The notes beneath the pieces were generated by a model, which saw only the letters and a list, made by a program, of their open reading frames with translations, was not told the origin of the DNA and searched no databases. Position numbers and translations under genes: made by a program. Of a DNA stretch of 36,448 bases, positions 3,225 to 13,037 are shown one piece after another (position 1 is the stretch's first letter; each line of letters begins with the position of its first letter). Source of the stretch: Candidatus Methanomethylophilaceae archaeon (GTDB lineage: Archaea; Thermoplasmatota; Thermoplasmata; Methanomassiliicoccales; Methanomethylophilaceae); NCBI GenBank assembly GCA_017508065.1, contig JAFVZR010000114.1:1-36448 (forward strand), written 5' to 3'.

Positions 3225-6200
3225 TTAGAAGAAGTCCGATAATGTGCACTTCTTGACCTTGTCACTGTTGAACAAGGAGTTCATACTCAATTCAAGAACC
3301 ATGATCCTTTCTTTGGTATATTCAGGAAGCCCATATTTCTCGCAGATGTTCTTGGATACTTCCAAGTACTTCCTTACGCTGGCTTCATGAACGGTAAGTG
3401 TCAGTTCATTACCACAAAGGCATTTTCCGGTAAGCGGGATGCGCCTGTATTTTGTACCGCATTTGGTACATCTGACTGCCTGAGCGGAATAGCTTCTAAG
3501 GTTTCCGATCATGTCCGGCATGAAGTGCTTATCGATGACCCTGATCGCGACATCCTTCTCGTCAACGGCACGAATCTTCTTACCGAGGGTGAGTTGACCA
3601 TCCATCTTATCCCTCATGGTCTCCAATGTCGTGTACGCAGAATGCTTTGGTCCCTCATTGATATCATGGGTGTTAAGTGTGAATCCAAGTCCCTCGTACT
3701 GATATATCGTGCCGATACGGCCCGCTATGAGGTCCATGATCTTCTCGACATCCTTGGCATCCCTCATCTCCATCGCAGCTTCGTAGAATGCCTTCGGGTA
3801 GCGCCTGAGGCAATCCACGTTCTGTGCTTCCTTATCGATCTCGTTGGGGTCCAATCTCGTCGTAAGAACGAGTGGTGCATCCATGAGTCCTCCTCTCCTG
3901 TCCGGGAGGTATGCTCTGGAGAAATTGAGCAATCCATCCAGGAGTAGCATGAGACAGTCCTCATCACCATCACAGTTCCTCCTCTTCGATGCATGGAAGA
4001 ATGGGTGCGCATAACATCCGCTGGCATCGGTGTATCCGATGATACGACACAGGATACCTCCAGATGTGTGCGGAGCAAGTCCGATTGTCAGGTGTCCGAT
4101 AAGGTCCTCCGGCTTCTCCACATTGTAGAATCTTGGAAGCCCATAGAATTTCTCAAGAAGATGATCTATGAACTTGGCAATCTGTACGAGGTACTTTCCA
4201 CATTCCCTGTTTGGAATGACATCCTGTACCTTCAATTCGCACATCTGTTCCGGGTCGGTGAGTGGGTCACCGTCCATATCGTGAACATACCCAAGTGCAT
4301 GGGCCTGTTCGATACTCATACTGACTTCCCTCGGTCTGAAGTGAGTCAGCGGAATATCGCTCATATCAAAACGTATTGTTCCATCCTTGTACACTCCAAG
4401 GTCATAGATCTGTCTGAGGATCGCTTTCTCGATGGGTTCCGGCACCTTGCCTTTGGATGTGAGTGCTTCCACGACCTTGACCTCTGGCGGTCTGCGAACA
4501 CCAAGGAGTTCCACAGCCGCATCCAGCTCCTTGCAGATGTCCACATCTATGGGGTCTCTCACGCCCTCCATCTTATCGGGTATGGTGTGTGCATCGCACG
4601 ATCTGCACCAGGTGCGGAATGTTGGCAGGCCACAGCTTGGGCACACTCTTTTACCCATGACTGGGGATATGCCCGTGACCTTCTTGCTATTGGACGACAT
4701 CCTTTTGATATCATCCACGGTAGCAACGATGTCCTTCTTGGTATTGTATTTATTAGTGGTACCGAAGATTCCATGTTGGATGGGTGCGCCTTTCCTGTCC
4801 TTGGCCTTTTCCGGCCTTCCCATCCTCATACCGATCCTCGTGATCGCTCTCGCACGTACCTCTATTCCAAGTGCGGAGGATACGGCTTCGAGTGATGTCT
4901 CGCCATCGAATTCGGATATCGATACGATGGAGTCGTCGGATATGGACAGTCCGAGGCATTCTAGGAACGGGAGCCCATATCTCTTGTCGATATTGATCGT
5001 TCCATCCCTCACGGTGTGAAGGGCACCGAGGGTCTCCAAGGTCCTCTTGTTCCCATTGCATGGGAATGTGACAAGCTTTCCCTTGATATGATAATACGAT
5101 TCATCGGATGAGATCAGAGAATCACGTATCCTGGATCTGTACTCATCGGACGTCTTTGACCAATCATATGTAGTGTCCGTGATTCCTACTTCGTTCACAA
5201 CGTCCGTATCGGGATCGTATGCGAGTCCAAGATCGGAAAGGAATGTCTTAGTGGTGGATAGATCCAGGCGTATGTTACCTGCATGGTATGAGAATTGGAC
5301 TCCTATGTTGGACAACGCGATCGTATCCTCATTGATCGGGATCACAGGAACGCCATCCTTCACAGTTCCGTGTTCGAGCACATAGGATCTCAGTGCCTTC
5401 AGAGACTCGATTGGTACGTCGGACCAGAATAGGTTGTAATCGGGATGTAGCGGGATACCGAGTTCTGCCGACATCTCCTTTGCCCTCTCGTATGTCGGGT
5501 GTTCCCAATCGTCCGGAAGGATCTGTTTGATCCATTTCTTGTAACGGTACAATCCGAGGTCCTTTAGGACCGTATCAGCGGATTCCAATACGATCTTTCC
5601 ATCCTCCACCTCGTATGGGATGTTCAGTGATATCAGCGCCCTTTCGGAATCGGATGGTACGATCATCCTGTTCTCATCGAATCCGATCTTTCCGGATAGG
5701 ATCCTGGAGCTCCAATCCTCTTTGGCTTTCTCGGCCTTCTTCCATTTGAGCATAGGTTCCGGGGCCTTATCCTCGTATTGTATCAGTCTGCCTTCGGAAT
5801 CATCGAACTTGATCTTCATATCGGATAGGAGTAGAACGGTGTTGTTCACACTGAGGCGAAGTCTACCTTCGATATCGATGTACTCCATGCCTATTAGATC
5901 CAATTGTGTGGCATATTCCTGCGGGAAGGACAAGGTCCCTCCGGAGAAGGAGATGTCCCTTCCATCGAGTGTCATTTCCGCCCATATATTGCGTGTTATG
6001 GCACCCATGCCGGACCAATTCAGCTCATCCGTACGTTCCGTATCGGATTCGGTTATGAGACTGTCCTCCATGCGGAGTCCGAGGTCCGAAAGTAATTTCT
6101 TGGCACTATCATCATCGATCGTGAGTTTATTCTCATCTTCCTTGAACGATACGCCTATCGTTTCCAATGTCCTCTTATCCTTCTTTATGGTGATGATCTT

Positions 6201-7919
6201 ACCATCGATGCATGCCATCGATCCGATGAGCAGACGTCCGCGAATATCGGATCTGTATATGTCCCCCAGAGCGTTCCAGTTGAGCACAGGTTCCGGAGGG
6301 GTCCATTTCAGTTGAATGAGCTCATCGCCATCACGGACAATCATCAGATCCAAGAGGATGGTGTTGGCAACATCTTCGGGGATCACGATGTCTCCGTCCT
6401 TCAGGGAGTAGTCCGCACCGATCTTCCTCAACGTATCCGTATCCTTACAGACGCTGATGGATACACTTCCATCCTTGCAAACCCCCTCGTTGAGTAGACG
6501 CAGTTTCAACCTATTCGCATAAGTGATGATCTCTTCCGTCATCTCTCCCGTGAATGTTGAACACTTCCAATCCTTAGGCAGTGGTTTCAAAGCATCCTCT
6601 ATCTCCTGTACGTGCCATTCGATAGGATATCCGCTCGGAACCAGGAAGTGATTGTTCTCACAGAATTCTCCGAACGGGACGAGCACTTCTCCGTTGTCTG
6701 TGATCTCGAACACATCGGACCTGGTCTCGCTGGCCACTTGTGAGGTCTGACACTGTACCAGGTCTCCATTGTTCAGGACTGCGATGGGTCCGTCCAACTC
6801 ATCACACGGTGTGACGACACATGCCTTTCCAGGTCTTTCGATCTTCAATTGGGTCCCCAATGCAGGGAACTCGTCCATGATGTACATGCTCGCAGGACAG
6901 AATGCTAGGGATGCCAACCCCGCGGTCCTCGCACGTCCGTATCTCAATCTGAAGCCCCCGACTCTGCTGGGGTGTCCGAAGATGGGCCTTCCTGCAACGA
7001 TGTCCTTCAGGTATTTCTCGGAAGGATGCACGGACCTTGGTCCTGAATCCGTAGCTACCGCAGCACCTTTCATGGAGAGGTATTCGTCCATGAATTCCCA
7101 TCCCTTGAGTCCGAGTTTCTTGACGTGTTTCTGTAACTTACTGGCTTTCTGACACATTCCCTCTGCCACGACAAGGCACGCTCCGCCCCTGACCTGGTTG
7201 GTCTTGATACGCGGGAGATCCCTGAATCCAGAGAGTTCCATCTTTTCCGTACCCTCTCCATCGATCATGATGGGGCACCTTCCTACGATGAGTTGGATCT
7301 CATCGGCAGATGGGGAATATTGGATGTGCTGACACATCTTATAAAGCGGGATCTCTTCGATGAACCTGTCGACCTCCGCCTGTGTGGGTTTGTATTCACC
7401 GATACCGATCTCCGTCCTCACGACATCTGCAAGGAGGACACTCATCGCCTGAGCAGTACCTCCTGCGGCACGGATGGGTCCTGCGAAAACCAGGTCCACG
7501 AATTCGGTACCGTCCTCGTTGATTCCGATCTTCGTGTCTGCAAGACCTTCGAGCGGTGCGACAAGGATTCCTTCGGTAAGCACGGCAAGTCCTGCACGGA
7601 TCGCGGTGTCCAAGGATTTCTCCTTGCTACCCATGTCCCTTTTGGCCATCTCCTTGGCCACATACAGGGAGACCAGCTCTCTGTTCTTGTACTTGTCAGT
7701 GAGTTCCCTGATGGTCTCCGCAATACCTTTGACGTCATAGTCCTTCAGAAGCTTCTCGACTCTGGATGCAAGGTCCTCCGCTTGCGGGACCTCCACCTTC
7801 GTTTCCGGGTCCCTGCCCAAGCGTCTTGCTTTACGAGCTATGTCGTAACATATCTCATTGTCCTCGGCGAGTTTCTTAAAATACTCGCCCATTTCGTCGC
7901 TGTAGACCAGTTCAGGCAT
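3225..7919 (-). CDS. polC: DNA polymerase D large subunit DP2, repeat-expanded
   Basis: DP2 is the catalytic subunit of the archaeal replicative polymerase PolD. The 1564-residue protein has the conserved N-terminal region (AGPIRAAGGTAQAMS about 146-160; FRLRYGRARTAG about 323-334) and MGRPEKA about 1033. Zinc fingers lie at Cys1093/1096/1105/1108 and about 1484-1502. The catalytic motif RRNCDGDED is at about 1313-1321 with both aspartates intact. The C-terminal KKCTLSDFF resembles a PCNA-binding peptide, with Lys where Gln is usual. Typical intein-free DP2 proteins have about 1100-1270 residues. The excess is not an intein but six related units between about 451 and 991, where one is expected. 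The start overlaps the upstream GTPase gene by 8 bases, so the two are cotranscribed. Confidence 0.96.
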   Translation of the reverse strand: MPELVYSDEMGEYFKKLAEDNEICYDIARKARRLGRDPETKVEVPQAEDLASRVEKLLKDYDVKGIAETIRELTDKYKNRELVSLYVAKEMAKRDMGSKEKSLDTAIRAGLAVLTEGILVAPLEGLADTKIGINEDGTEFVDLVFAGPIRAAGGTAQAMSVLLADVVRTEIGIGEYKPTQAEVDRFIEEIPLYKMCQHIQYSPSADEIQLIVGRCPIMIDGEGTEKMELSGFRDLPRIKTNQVRGGACLVVAEGMCQKASKLQKHVKKLGLKGWEFMDEYLSMKGAAVATDSGPRSVHPSEKYLKDIVAGRPIFGHPSRVGGFRLRYGRARTAGLASLAFCPASMYIMDEFPALGTQLKIERPGKACVVTPCDELDGPIAVLNNGDLVQCQTSQVASETRSDVFEITDNGEVLVPFGEFCENNHFLVPSGYPIEWHVQEIEDALKPLPKDWKCSTFTGEMTEEIITYANRLKLRLLNEGVCKDGSVSISVCKDTDTLRKIGADYSLKDGDIVIPEDVANTILLDLMIVRDGDELIQLKWTPPEPVLNWNALGDIYRSDIRGRLLIGSMACIDGKIITIKKDKRTLETIGVSFKEDENKLTIDDDSAKKLLSDLGLRMEDSLITESDTERTDELNWSGMGAITRNIWAEMTLDGRDISFSGGTLSFPQEYATQLDLIGMEYIDIEGRLRLSVNNTVLLLSDMKIKFDDSEGRLIQYEDKAPEPMLKWKKAEKAKEDWSSRILSGKIGFDENRMIVPSDSERALISLNIPYEVEDGKIVLESADTVLKDLGLYRYKKWIKQILPDDWEHPTYERAKEMSAELGIPLHPDYNLFWSDVPIESLKALRSYVLEHGTVKDGVPVIPINEDTIALSNIGVQFSYHAGNIRLDLSTTKTFLSDLGLAYDPDTDVVNEVGITDTTYDWSKTSDEYRSRIRDSLISSDESYYHIKGKLVTFPCNGNKRTLETLGALHTVRDGTINIDKRYGLPFLECLGLSISDDSIVSISEFDGETSLEAVSSALGIEVRARAITRIGMRMGRPEKAKDRKGAPIQHGIFGTTNKYNTKKDIVATVDDIKRMSSNSKKVTGISPVMGKRVCPSCGLPTFRTWCRSCDAHTIPDKMEGVRDPIDVDICKELDAAVELLGVRRPPEVKVVEALTSKGKVPEPIEKAILRQIYDLGVYKDGTIRFDMSDIPLTHFRPREVSMSIEQAHALGYVHDMDGDPLTDPEQMCELKVQDVIPNRECGKYLVQIAKFIDHLLEKFYGLPRFYNVEKPEDLIGHLTIGLAPHTSGGILCRIIGYTDASGCYAHPFFHASKRRNCDGDEDCLMLLLDGLLNFSRAYLPDRRGGLMDAPLVLTTRLDPNEIDKEAQNVDCLRRYPKAFYEAAMEMRDAKDVEKIMDLIAGRIGTIYQYEGLGFTLNTHDINEGPKHSAYTTLETMRDKMDGQLTLGKKIRAVDEKDVAIRVIDKHFMPDMIGNLRSYSAQAVRCTKCGTKYRRIPLTGKCLCGNELTLTVHEASVRKYLEVSKNICEKYGLPEYTKERIMVLELSMNSLFNSDKVKKCTLSDFF
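4947..6569 (-). repeat. Six diverged tandem units inside polC
   Basis: Residues about 451-991 of DP2 contain six copies of a module with the pattern DG-x-I ... TLexIGv ... I-x-I ... LLxDLGL. Core positions are about 473-527, 560-615, 646-703, 737-790, 845-899 and 932-991. Linkers end in a recurring tryptophan at 451 (LPKDW), 548 (LNW), 635 (LNW), 726 (LKW), 805 (LPDDW) and 920 (YDW). Most spacings are 79-97 residues; the last is 115 because it also holds the family-typical HPxYxxFW segment at about 825-832. Copies 2 and 6 share KRTLET(I/L)G. Copy 5 is in the canonical position. Confidence 0.8.
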
Positions 7920-8913
7920 CTACGTCCTCTTCCGGCTGCTGGAGTCTGATCTTCCTGAGCTCGGTGATGACAGCGGTACGGAGGGCCTCCATGTTCTCAC
8001 CGGATTGTGCGGAGAAGCATGGTCTGTCCGGGTTTCCGGTCTTCATGATATCGCATTTACTTTCGGCGACGATGATCGGGACACCTTCGAATCCTTTCTT
8101 GAGGGATTCCATGAGTGCGATCTGCTTCTCCATACTGTATCCGCAGGTCTCAGAAGGATCCATGACGATGAGCATCACATGGGTCAGATATTTGAGTGCA
8201 AGGATGGCCTGTTTCTCGATATCGTTACGTTCGGACAGTTCCCTGTCCAGGAGTCCGGGGGTATCGATGATCTGATACTTCCTCCATTCATCCTCGATGT
8301 GTCCGACGATGATTCCCTTGGTGGTGAACGGATATGGTGCGATCTCAGGTGCTGCCGTGGAGAGTTCCGTGACGAGGTTGCTCTTTCCTACGTTGGGGAA
8401 TCCTGCAACGACGACGGTCGCGATGTCGGACTCGATAGAAGGCAACTTCCTGAACTTGTTCTTGCAGTCCTGAAGGAACAGCAGATCCTTGGCGATCTGC
8501 TTAAGCAGAGAGGATATGCGTCCGTAGAAATGGGCTCTGACGCCCTTGATGATCTCCGGATCCTTGCTGCGTCTGATGTTCCTAAGTGACTCGTTCGTGA
8601 GCTTATCGGTACGGTTGGCCGCCCATTTGACCGTTCCGAGGGACTTCTTATAAGGGTCGAGACCGATGACGAGATCCACAAGTTCGGGAAGGAAATCCTC
8701 TTCCTTCTCGAATCTGGGGAACTTGTTCACGTATCCGTTGAGAGTGTCCTTGATGATGTCCCCGACTGCGGATACCTTCGCAAGAGTGGTCTTCTTCACA
8801 GAATCCAGGGCATTCGCTCCTGAGATCGTGATCTTTGATGCTCTGTGGAACGCTTTGTCCATCAATTCATCCGCTGATAGTACGGTTGGGACTCTGTATG
8901 TCTTCTCGGCCAT
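7912..8913 (-). CDS. NOG1-like ribosome-associated GTPase
   Basis: This is an archaeal GTPase of the NOG1/Obg group; eukaryotic Nog1 works in 60S ribosomal subunit assembly. The 333-residue protein has a long helical N-terminal region (about 1-160) typical of NOG1. The GTPase domain follows: P-loop GFPNVGKSN 171-179, switch I FTTKG about 196-200, DTPGLLD 217-223, base motif ESKCD 284-288 (a variant of NKxD), and SAQSG 301-305. It lacks the long C-terminal region of eukaryotic Nog1, as expected in archaea. A TATA box about 25 bases before the ATG suggests a leaderless message. The last 8 bases overlap polC. Confidence 0.9.
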   Translation of the reverse strand: MAEKTYRVPTVLSADELMDKAFHRASKITISGANALDSVKKTTLAKVSAVGDIIKDTLNGYVNKFPRFEKEEDFLPELVDLVIGLDPYKKSLGTVKWAANRTDKLTNESLRNIRRSKDPEIIKGVRAHFYGRISSLLKQIAKDLLFLQDCKNKFRKLPSIESDIATVVVAGFPNVGKSNLVTELSTAAPEIAPYPFTTKGIIVGHIEDEWRKYQIIDTPGLLDRELSERNDIEKQAILALKYLTHVMLIVMDPSETCGYSMEKQIALMESLKKGFEGVPIIVAESKCDIMKTGNPDRPCFSAQSGENMEALRTAVITELRKIRLQQPEEDVDA

Positions 8914-8957: not shown

Positions 8958-11900
8958 TCAGGCCCCCTCGTCATATGCCGCCTTGGAGAACGACATCCTT
9001 ATGAGCCAGAGGTCATGATCGTAGTATTCCTTGGCCTTGAACTGTGGCGGGATACCGCCGACTGGCACATCCTCTAGGACGAGTCCCGCCTCCGCTCTCC
9101 ATCCCTTTCCCTCGCCGTCCGGTCTGAACACGGACGATATCGCCGAGAGGTTGAACTTGAGTGACAGACCAGCATTGATCTCCGGTGTGTCCCCGGGGAG
9201 CTTCATGAACTTGGGTGCGGAGATTCCCATGTATGTGACGATGCGGAAATAGATGTCATCCATCATGATCCTCTCCATGGTCATGCCCATGGGGTTGTTG
9301 ATGTGCTCTCCGATCATGGGGATCATCGAAGCTATGTATCTCAGTGTGTCGCCAACTATCTCCGAATCAAGACCCAGCATGACCTTCATACCAAGACCCA
9401 ACGATCCGGTGTAATCCTTGAATGCCAGATCGATGAACAGGTATGCCTCCACGATACCATTCGCTATGGTGTCAATGATCCTCTCCAACATTTCTGCCAT
9501 AACCGTTTCGACGAATTCCATCATCTGTTCGGTGTCTGTGATCTTACCGCCCATCTTCGTCAGGACCTCTGGCACGATATCGATCATGTAATCGACCAAT
9601 GTTGCCGTGGAGAGCTTGGGCATCGCGAAGTTCTCACCGTTGGAACCTCCGGGCGATCTCTTGTTGAATCCCCAATCCACATATGCATCGGTGTTACGTT
9701 GATTTGTGAACTCGTTGTTCTCCGAGTCGGTGAGCCAGTCCGTATAATCCACTACCTCTCCGTATGTGTTGTAGAGTGTGACCCTCTCCCCCTTGAGCCC
9801 TTTTGACGGCCCGTTGTTGAGTGTCTGTTTGGGGAATTCGATGATCAGGTGCTCTTTGATACCGATGACCTCGTCCTCGATGGTGTAGGCTTTCTGCCCT
9901 CCAGATTCCGGACTGAGGACGTATCCGGTCAGATCGATCACCTTGTCGGAGTTGTTATACAGTTCCACCCATTCGTTACCCGCATCGTTGCCTGCGGGAT
10001 TGAGTTCCACTTCATTGATGACCAATCCGTCCTTAATCGGTAGATTGCATTTCAGATACGCTCCGGCATCGATGGAACAGCTGACCCCAGGAATCGGCGT
10101 GGGTATATTGGACAGCAGATCCCCTATTCCTGGGACATCAGAGATTGCAACCTCCAACTTCTTGTACTCCACGTGCTCGGGCAAGGTGCCACTGTACTCG
10201 ATCCCCCTGACATTGCCGCTTATGCTGACATAGTACGGCCTTGATGACAGGAGGGGATCCAGATCCACGGAGAACTTCCAATCGTCACCCTCTGCACTGC
10301 CTCCTGCGAGTACCTTGTACGAATCGTCGCCTTTCTTTCCGATCTGACAGAATGCGGTCGTGGATATGCCCATGACCTCCTTGGAGATCGTAACCTTAAC
10401 TATCTCCTTGGTGGATTTGAACGCAGTTCTGAGATCGGTCTCGATGGTAATCTCTGCATCGAAGACTCTGAAAGTGATCTTCTGACCATCCAGTGCCAAG
10501 CACATGGATTCAAGACCTATGTTCCTCAATAGGTCTTGCAGATAGGTCGCAACCATATTTTGGAGGATCTCCAGAGGTATGGTCACTATCTCGTACACCA
10601 TGGTCAGCATGTCATTGATCCTGTTGCCGAATTCCAACATGATGTTGCTGCATATGTTCTCCAGGTCCTTGATCGCCCTGAATATCCTCATGAGGTCATC
10701 CAGGATCGGTTGAATGATCTCGAATACCTTGGTCCATACATCGTTGAGCAGAGTGTTGCTCTTCTTGTAATGTACCCCTGCGAGTTCCCATCCGCTGATA
10801 CACGGGATCTCCAGGAAGAAGTCTATGTCCGATGAACCATAGTATATCGAGTCGTATGAGTCCACCGATCCAGTGATCTCATTCGAGGATGTGATGGTGT
10901 AATCTATCTTTCCTGAGACCTTAACATCATACGTTGCGGAGAACACGACCTTTCCCCAGTTCTTGAAACCGATGTAGTGAATGTTCTTCGAATCATTGTG
11001 CAGAGGGCTGACAAGGTCGATTCTCAGGTCCGTCTCGTCCACTATGGACAGTGATTCCACATATTTTCCTGACAATCCGTCGGTGAGTTCGAATGACTCT
11101 TCCTCGGGCAGTTCCATGACATCGAAAATCGGTTCCGATTCCACGGATTCTATTATCCTGTCAGCAAGGTCATCCATCTGATTCTTGACGATGTCCCCTA
11201 TGATCGTAGCTTCAAGGACCTTTCCGATCGCGAATGCAAGACATTCGATGATTATGTTGCTGTTGTCATGGATAGCCCTATTCATACTTTCGAGCTTCAT
11301 GACCTGGTCGTCAATGATTTTCATGTACGTCAGAAAGGCTGAGTTTATGTTCGATTTGAGGTACATCTCCTCGATGACCTTCGTACGGTATTCGCTTAGC
11401 TCCTTGTACTCTGATACCTTGTTGTTACATGAGGTCATGAACGCATATCTGATGTCATCCGTCACCTCTGGCAAATCGAATATGGCATACGCGTTCCTTT
11501 TGATGCAATCATATGCTGTTGACATGAACGGGTCTGTGAACTCACAGGAGCCAGATTCTTTCCTCACATTCTCTTCGAAGATGGCATTGCAATCCTGGAT
11601 TGCGGAGTGGAGCATGCTCTTGATGGTTTCGGCGTAGTTCTCATCATCATAGCAATCGATTGGTAATTCCACGATGCACGAGTCCTCGATGTTCATCGCG
11701 ATGGATTTCAGAACCCCTTTGAGGGACTCCAACAGGGCGTTCCTGTCATGACGATAGTTTTCGTAGAACTTTCCCCATCCTTCCCAATCCAATACGTTTT
11801 TCTCCGGTAACTGGTACTTTTCCGTCCATCCTTCTACGAACACGGTCACGGATTCCTCATCGACATCTACGGTGAATTCCAGGTCCGGTACTGTTATTTC

Positions 11901-13037
11901 GACTGTTCCGGGGGCGATTATTTTGAGGTCGTTGACCGCACCGACCTCCTGCATACATTTCGATATGAGGTCGATGGCCTTGTCCTTATCGATATCCTTG
12001 TTAAGGATGAATTTCACGACACCTTTGGCTATGTCACGTGAAAAATCGTTCAGACCGTCAATCGCTTCGAATACCAAATCCGTTCCGAGATATTCCATCC
12101 AGCTGAGCGCATACTCATCGATCTTGGAGTATATCGCCTGGCCATAGAACGCACCGAGGTCGAATTTTACCACACCGTCCTCTGCTACAAAATATTCCGC
12201 GATATCGATCTGGCTCATACCTAGGAATGATTCATTTCCGGATCCGTTGCACCTGAACTTCATCGTCTCTATGATGTCCAGTGCGTTACGTACGGCTTTT
12301 TGAACATCCCTGACCGTTATCAGTTCCTCTACGCTCTTCGAACCTCCGATGTTCATCGCCCCGTACCCGTTGAGGATCCTGGATTGTACCAGTGCAGACA
12401 GTTGGTAGTCCACCATCTGTGCGAGTGCGGAGTTCGCACCTTCGATGGACAGTTCGAACTCCGTAGCGGATTCGATGACAAGAGGGAGACATGAGGTCGC
12501 ATCTGCCGATACTTCGAACGTCTTCAGGGTCCCTGTCGATTCAGTGGAGAATTCTATGGTCACTGTTCCGATAGCACGGAGGAATGCGGATTTCGTGTCA
12601 TTGATCCCGGAACCTTCGGTCCCGAGTCTCATGGACTCAATCGTGAGCCAGATGTCATGGGAGATCACATCTGCGGTTACTCCGCGATTGAATGCTGGGT
12701 ATTTCGTATCGAACATCTCCCTGTACTCCTTGTCGAATGTTCTCGAGATATCAAGGAGGTTGTGCGATTCGGTCGTTGTATCGTCACTTACCGAACCCGG
12801 TACGTCGCTAAGGTTGGAAACGATGTTTCCAAGGTCTGCTTCGATCTGCATGATCGTACGGTCCATTTCTTCATCAAGAGCATCGATCTCGTTCGAAAGG
12901 GATTCAGAGTTCCTTGTGGATTCCTCGATGTTCTTTGTCACTATGCAGAAGAAAGAACCGGAGATCAGGAGTGCAACGGCGATCATGGCCATTGGCATCT
13001 GTCCTTTTCTGGACCTGTTTCTTCCATTATTGATCAT
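8958..13037 (-). CDS. Giant surface protein, pilin-like N-terminus and lamin-tail domain
   Basis: This 1359-residue protein is predicted to be exported and anchored at its N-terminus. Residues 1-12 are basic (RNRSRKG), followed by Gln-Met and a hydrophobic helix at about 14-34. A KG-Q junction directly before the helix is the layout of class III (pilin/archaellin) signal peptides, so prepilin peptidase processing is possible. Residues about 37-80 look like a coiled coil. Long helical and beta-rich stretches of no recognised family follow. A lamin-tail domain spans about 1003-1135 (LVINEVELNPAGNDAGNEW, LTGYVLS, VDYTDWL, NKRSPGGSN). The C-terminus is unrecognised. The gene stands alone, divergent from tes. 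Its cellular role is unknown. Confidence 0.85.
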   Translation of the reverse strand: MINNGRNRSRKGQMPMAMIAVALLISGSFFCIVTKNIEESTRNSESLSNEIDALDEEMDRTIMQIEADLGNIVSNLSDVPGSVSDDTTTESHNLLDISRTFDKEYREMFDTKYPAFNRGVTADVISHDIWLTIESMRLGTEGSGINDTKSAFLRAIGTVTIEFSTESTGTLKTFEVSADATSCLPLVIESATEFELSIEGANSALAQMVDYQLSALVQSRILNGYGAMNIGGSKSVEELITVRDVQKAVRNALDIIETMKFRCNGSGNESFLGMSQIDIAEYFVAEDGVVKFDLGAFYGQAIYSKIDEYALSWMEYLGTDLVFEAIDGLNDFSRDIAKGVVKFILNKDIDKDKAIDLISKCMQEVGAVNDLKIIAPGTVEITVPDLEFTVDVDEESVTVFVEGWTEKYQLPEKNVLDWEGWGKFYENYRHDRNALLESLKGVLKSIAMNIEDSCIVELPIDCYDDENYAETIKSMLHSAIQDCNAIFEENVRKESGSCEFTDPFMSTAYDCIKRNAYAIFDLPEVTDDIRYAFMTSCNNKVSEYKELSEYRTKVIEEMYLKSNINSAFLTYMKIIDDQVMKLESMNRAIHDNSNIIIECLAFAIGKVLEATIIGDIVKNQMDDLADRIIESVESEPIFDVMELPEEESFELTDGLSGKYVESLSIVDETDLRIDLVSPLHNDSKNIHYIGFKNWGKVVFSATYDVKVSGKIDYTITSSNEITGSVDSYDSIYYGSSDIDFFLEIPCISGWELAGVHYKKSNTLLNDVWTKVFEIIQPILDDLMRIFRAIKDLENICSNIMLEFGNRINDMLTMVYEIVTIPLEILQNMVATYLQDLLRNIGLESMCLALDGQKITFRVFDAEITIETDLRTAFKSTKEIVKVTISKEVMGISTTAFCQIGKKGDDSYKVLAGGSAEGDDWKFSVDLDPLLSSRPYYVSISGNVRGIEYSGTLPEHVEYKKLEVAISDVPGIGDLLSNIPTPIPGVSCSIDAGAYLKCNLPIKDGLVINEVELNPAGNDAGNEWVELYNNSDKVIDLTGYVLSPESGGQKAYTIEDEVIGIKEHLIIEFPKQTLNNGPSKGLKGERVTLYNTYGEVVDYTDWLTDSENNEFTNQRNTDAYVDWGFNKRSPGGSNGENFAMPKLSTATLVDYMIDIVPEVLTKMGGKITDTEQMMEFVETVMAEMLERIIDTIANGIVEAYLFIDLAFKDYTGSLGLGMKVMLGLDSEIVGDTLRYIASMIPMIGEHINNPMGMTMERIMMDDIYFRIVTYMGISAPKFMKLPGDTPEINAGLSLKFNLSAISSVFRPDGEGKGWRAEAGLVLEDVPVGGIPPQFKAKEYYDHDLWLIRMSFSKAAYDEGA

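Follow-up and report, generated by a model that had tools for sequence, protein, structure and literature searches.

The large subunit of DNA polymerase D (DP2) encoded in the window, by which we mean the whole stretch of 36,448 nucleotides analysed here, carries at residues 451-1008 six diverged copies of one module of ~85 residues. Ordinary DP2 carries one such module of ~80 residues, which starts at the W of NLFWSDV and extends through CLGL into the next stretch. The sequences show that there are six copies in an order shared with a sister species, that a single copy is present elsewhere and that the rest of the enzyme is intact; the protein is very probably a DP2 with a tandemly duplicated Accessory-1 module. 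In the mechanism that we propose, the ancestor shared by two sister species would have multiplied the helix-hairpin module of Accessory-1 by in-frame tandem duplication, raising its number from one to six. The resulting chain would lie outside DPBB-1 and away from the DNA path, would leave catalysis unchanged and would form an enlarged protein-docking arm, comparable to the single-copy Accessory-1 that serves the RPA winged helix in Pyrococcus. For this statement as a whole, amplification together with a docking arm, we estimate a probability of about 0.5.

The polD large subunit gene lies at 3225..7919 on the reverse strand and encodes 1564 residues, as given already in the earlier note; its identity is supported by Pfam and NCBIfam matches above their cut-offs. 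The Pfam domains are PolC_DP2_N (12-281), the central domain (from 296) and the catalytic domain (1142-1438), with PF03833, PF24844 and PF24846 following in order, each over its cut-off, and the NCBIfam equivalog NF003103 scores 1407 bits (cut-off 1269). When solved structures were searched by sequence, PolD DP2 gave the only matches. The two invariant aspartates, which had been described as kept, are indeed present in RRNCDGDED, inside the PF24846 match and aligned to those of P. abyssi. The initial portion of the central domain (DPBB-1; residues 296-446, 6582..7034, reverse strand, PolC_DP2_central 7-159) is ordinary and 95% identical to that of the sister species SIG6. A single DP2 was detected in the window's genome (G000), and both this genome and that of SIG6 (G113) have a DP1 gene of the usual length. 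The DP2 start shares 8 bases (7912-7919) with the ORF of a NOG1-like GTPase (7912-8913), an overlap that suggests coupled translation; upstream of the latter lies the gene of a 1359-aa protein (8958-13037, reverse strand) in which a Lamin Tail Domain (residues 1003-1101) is the sole Pfam family.

DP2s of the same genus have 1115 (G114), 1119 (G116) and 1125 (G117) residues, so that the excess in the window amounts to ~445 residues, or five units of ~89, and DP2 has grown by about 40% in the two sister species. The excess had first been placed at residues 451-991; the location of the block stood, yet the excess is ~445 residues and not the whole 540-aa block, and the sixth unit extends to ~1008. 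Similarly, the tryptophans proposed as unit starts required one correction, as W805 is part of a conserved LPxDW connecting segment and the fifth unit begins at W832, the tryptophan of the ordinary NLFWSDV. Growth took place at two points: four units were added ahead of LPDDW805, and the length of one further unit lies within the ordinary module (~863 to ~951). A fourth relative in the genus (G115) has a DP2 of 1187 residues, with a charged insert at the same site that is unrelated to the array.

All units are read on the reverse strand. M1 with its linker (residues 451-547, 6279..6569) starts at the W of LPKDW and is followed by M2 with its linker (548-634, 6018..6278), M3 with its linker, the most diverged of the six (635-725, 5745..6017), and M4 (726-804, 5508..5744), which continues into the LPDDW segment. 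These four are supported by profile comparisons and the predicted model, M4 being matched in addition by Pfam PolC_DP2_central. The connecting segment (residues 805-831, WEHPTYERAKEMSAELGIPLHPDYNLF, 5427..5507), identified by alignment with DP2s of the same genus and with P. abyssi 503-550, is conserved and present in one copy, as in ordinary DP2. It is followed by M5 with its linker (832-919, 5163..5426) and M6 (920-1008, 4896..5162), both placed by profiles and alignment. The linkers PPEPVLNW and APEPMLKW are similar to each other. The ordinary module is divided between two units in the alignment, its first half matching the first half of M5 and its second half the second half of M6, a split that is expected if duplication began inside a unit.

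Searching the block with a profile HMM of the ordinary module gave 10.0 bits for M1, 17.5 for M2, 4.7 for M4, 31.8 for M5 and 59.3 for M6, and missed M3; since shuffling the block 2000 times gave scores of up to 5.4 bits, M4 falls inside the shuffle range and is not significant by HMM search alone. In profile-profile comparison with the ordinary module (hhalign, using two-sequence profiles of the modules), M1 to M6 scored 33.8, 38.7, 22.0, 36.1, 81 and 120, all above the highest score (15.7) among 19 control windows taken from this protein, with M3 the weakest. Compared with one another, most pairs of modules scored 27-43, M3 scoring 29-33 with M1, M2, M4 and M5, while the pairs of M6 with M1, M3 and M4 were lower (12-20); the highest score among 60 control comparisons was 17.8. 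In addition, the M1-M2 region aligns with M5-M6 of the same protein at E 9e-14, with 32% identity over 168 residues. The internal repeat scores above the shuffle and window controls, and the view that the block consists of six diverged copies of one module is borne out by these scores and by the common order of predicted elements described below. As for a duplication unit of two modules, in-phase comparisons were not clearly above off-phase ones.

Restriction of the array to two species could also be expected of a foreign element, such as an intact or decayed intein, or a domain acquired from a different gene instead of by duplication. Indeed, the fold search showed a weak and non-significant likeness to LAGLIDADG nucleases (2dch, E 0.054). 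However, no Hint, intein or homing-endonuclease (LAGLIDADG) family of Pfam was found in the insert at E up to 10, and viral contigs held no relative of it. When the insert alone was compared with 24,736 Pfam models, PolC_DP2_central ranked first at E 2.8e-5, a match just under the curated cut-off. Across the genomes of the order the insert search matched DP2 as the sole protein, and within its own genome the insert matched itself and M5-M6 only; a sequence search of the PDB with the insert profile returned no match. The homology to DP2's own module, together with a third-position GC equal to that of the rest of the gene, leaves scarcely any chance for a foreign origin.

Structure prediction points in the same direction. 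In an AlphaFold2 model of the block in context (residues 285-1062, mean pLDDT 72.8, pTM 0.59), the succession helix, hairpin, helix, hairpin, helix, hairpin is predicted six times, the last hairpin being absent from M4. Local confidence was mostly 65-85 for M1-M4 and about 94 for M5-M6; as the pTM is modest, the model does not fix how the modules are arranged. Modelled alone, from two sequences, the insert reached a low mean pLDDT of 43.7, although its elements followed almost the same order. Judged by this order of helices and strands, the six copies are predicted to fold alike. The in-context model had eight significant matches in the PDB, all of them DP2, and M5, M6 and DPBB-1 may account for these matches.

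Among 147 genomes of the order, in which open frames longer than 1290 aa were retrieved and aligned, the array occurs only in the window's genome and in that of isolate SIG6 (contig SUSY01000014), where the same six copies stand in the same order. Both genomes are fragmented drafts, which would favour an artefact of assembly or binning. Against this, SUSY01000014 is an independent assembly carrying the same array at 61% identity, and the copies are too diverged for assembly repeats, so that we consider an artefact extremely unlikely. Other long DP2 frames were met in relatives (1200-3090 aa), and those above 1290 aa in the order are frame extensions past the gene. A profile of all modules, applied to 400 genomes of the class, gave six matches in each of the two genomes, by construction, as copies of both species were included in it; the informative part of this survey is the single match elsewhere. 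Nearly all of the other matched genomes had one module match, and among those listed three had two, namely G110, where DP2 is in several broken pieces, and G584 and G651, with a listed contamination of 4-5%. No module match was found in 49 of the 400 genomes; some of these are nearly complete, which indicates that diverged modules escape the profile. The expansion of DP2 thus appears confined to two sister species within Methanomassiliicoccales. The earlier note had supposed that DP2 grew by duplicating a module present singly in the ordinary enzyme; the profiles, the first-ranking Pfam match, the predicted fold and this restricted occurrence all agree with that view.

In other families, the same region of DP2 varies in other ways. 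In two families of the phylum, f35 and f43 (L072, L078, L079, L081, L082, L084, L085), Accessory-1 is likewise the part that has grown, yet by stretching of a single module through long loops and other inserts, with no repeats detected, whereas growth in the window is by repeats. In families f29 and f45 (L071, L073, L074, L075, L077), DP2 has a charged and apparently helical insert of ~65-80 residues at the site of the array. Split matches to the central domain in these four families were considered as further candidates, and the examples checked had no repeated module. In family f34 (G303, G306, G388, G228 and others), DP2 frames reach about 1630-1690 aa, compared with about 1150 aa in relatives, with the central domain intact, and possibly contain inteins.

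In a tree of the modules, every module pairs with its SIG6 counterpart and M6 falls among the ordinary modules. This module-by-module pairing indicates that all duplications are older than the split of the two species; the array either arose once these two species had separated from the other members of the genus, or was lost in those members. Identity between the window and SIG6 is 61% in the insert and 94-97% in the flanks. Substitutions at synonymous sites have reached or nearly reached saturation, and dN/dS could thus be computed for some parts only, giving rough values of 0.17-0.21 in M4 and M5 and 0.01-0.02 in the flanks. The ordinary module likewise evolves faster than its own flanks.

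The fast evolution of the insert is also compatible with loose constraint. The array may have accreted without adaptive value, by slippage or unequal recombination at a tolerant surface site, yielding a chain that folds and is harmless but has no new function. The insert changes ~10x faster than the flanks at non-synonymous sites, unrelated inserts occupy the same site (charged in G115, helical and charged in f29 and f45), and f35 and f43 have single modules of enlarged size, all of which would fit such accretion. Nonetheless, recombination could easily have removed copies, and six of them persist with their fold signature intact over near-saturating synonymous divergence. As frame, order and number of modules have been kept over the same divergence, maintenance under purifying selection is the best reading. 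We would consider accretion about as likely as a docking arm.

Accessory-1 of P. abyssi is an insertion in DPBB-1 (PMC6355029). Its function was unassigned until docking of RPA was reported in 2024, with the winged-helix domain of RPA bound through I474, Y475, E476, E492, Y496, V527 and R567 (PMC11686378). In a pairwise alignment, the array starts at the RPA-touching I474-E476 and R567 falls inside the module, from which we infer a putative mapping of the array onto the RPA-contact residues. The earlier note had proposed changed DNA binding or partner contacts. The array belongs to a DNA polymerase and M4 is slightly basic (pI 8.2), as could be wanted of a chain that binds template or duplex DNA and alters processivity. 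Yet the other modules have pI values of 4.2-5.3 and the array is acidic overall, while Accessory-1 is without known DNA-binding domains and its RPA site in Pyrococcus lies 55 Å from the active site (PMC11686378). Altered DNA handling is consequently improbable, and because of this acidity and the location of the RPA site on Accessory-1, protein docking is favoured over DNA binding. Of the two earlier proposals, partner contacts fit better, and a protein-docking arm remains a tentative reading to which we would give somewhat less than even odds.

The RPA winged helix was considered as the partner of the array and set aside. In Thermococcales, the RPA-docking Accessory-1 pairs with a winged-helix RPA, whereas a search of six genomes of the window's genus for the winged-helix family PF08784 gave no match, although a diverged winged helix may have escaped it. 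In a comparison covering G000, G113, G114 and G115, the RPA-like protein of G000 and G113 has no long C-terminal extension. That of G115 (L110, reverse strand) has a 675-aa frame with seemingly extra OB-fold copies relative to the other three, and is perhaps another replication protein grown by repeats in this genus. SIG6 has two DP1 genes, 57% identical (L119, G113:C38:3432-4865, and L125, G113:C30); the C30 gene is 94% identical to DP1 of the window's genome, which leaves the C38 gene as a possible paralogue or contaminant.

The domains outside the block are common to the window DP2 and that of P. abyssi PolD (6hms, 6t8h, 9f29). The latter is without the 445-aa expansion and has, instead of six modules, one that starts near W540 and whose halves have their homologues in M5 and M6. 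Closer to the window, the DP2s of G114, G116 and G117 are the same gene, with flanks about 65-70% identical, and like the other Methanomassiliicoccales DP2s they have one module as opposed to six. In the searched literature, which included few subscription journals, four papers mention Accessory-1 along with PolD, and no description of an expanded Accessory-1 was found; the genome survey covered one archaeal phylum, so that an earlier example may exist elsewhere.

The architecture of replicative polymerases is generally thought to change slowly. Here, in two sister species that are relatives of gut methanogens, an essential replication enzyme has been enlarged by repeated duplication of an outer domain. 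Perhaps several modules each bind one copy of a replication or repair partner, which would make the array a multivalent docking arm; we regard this as unlikely, and if it were true, PolD would gather at the fork a factor that ordinary PolD meets singly or never. The sole DP2 found in each of the two genomes is longer by ~445 residues and that of relatives in the same genus is not, which provides a natural before-and-after pair, and the amplified Accessory-1 offers a way to ask what this domain binds outside Thermococcales.
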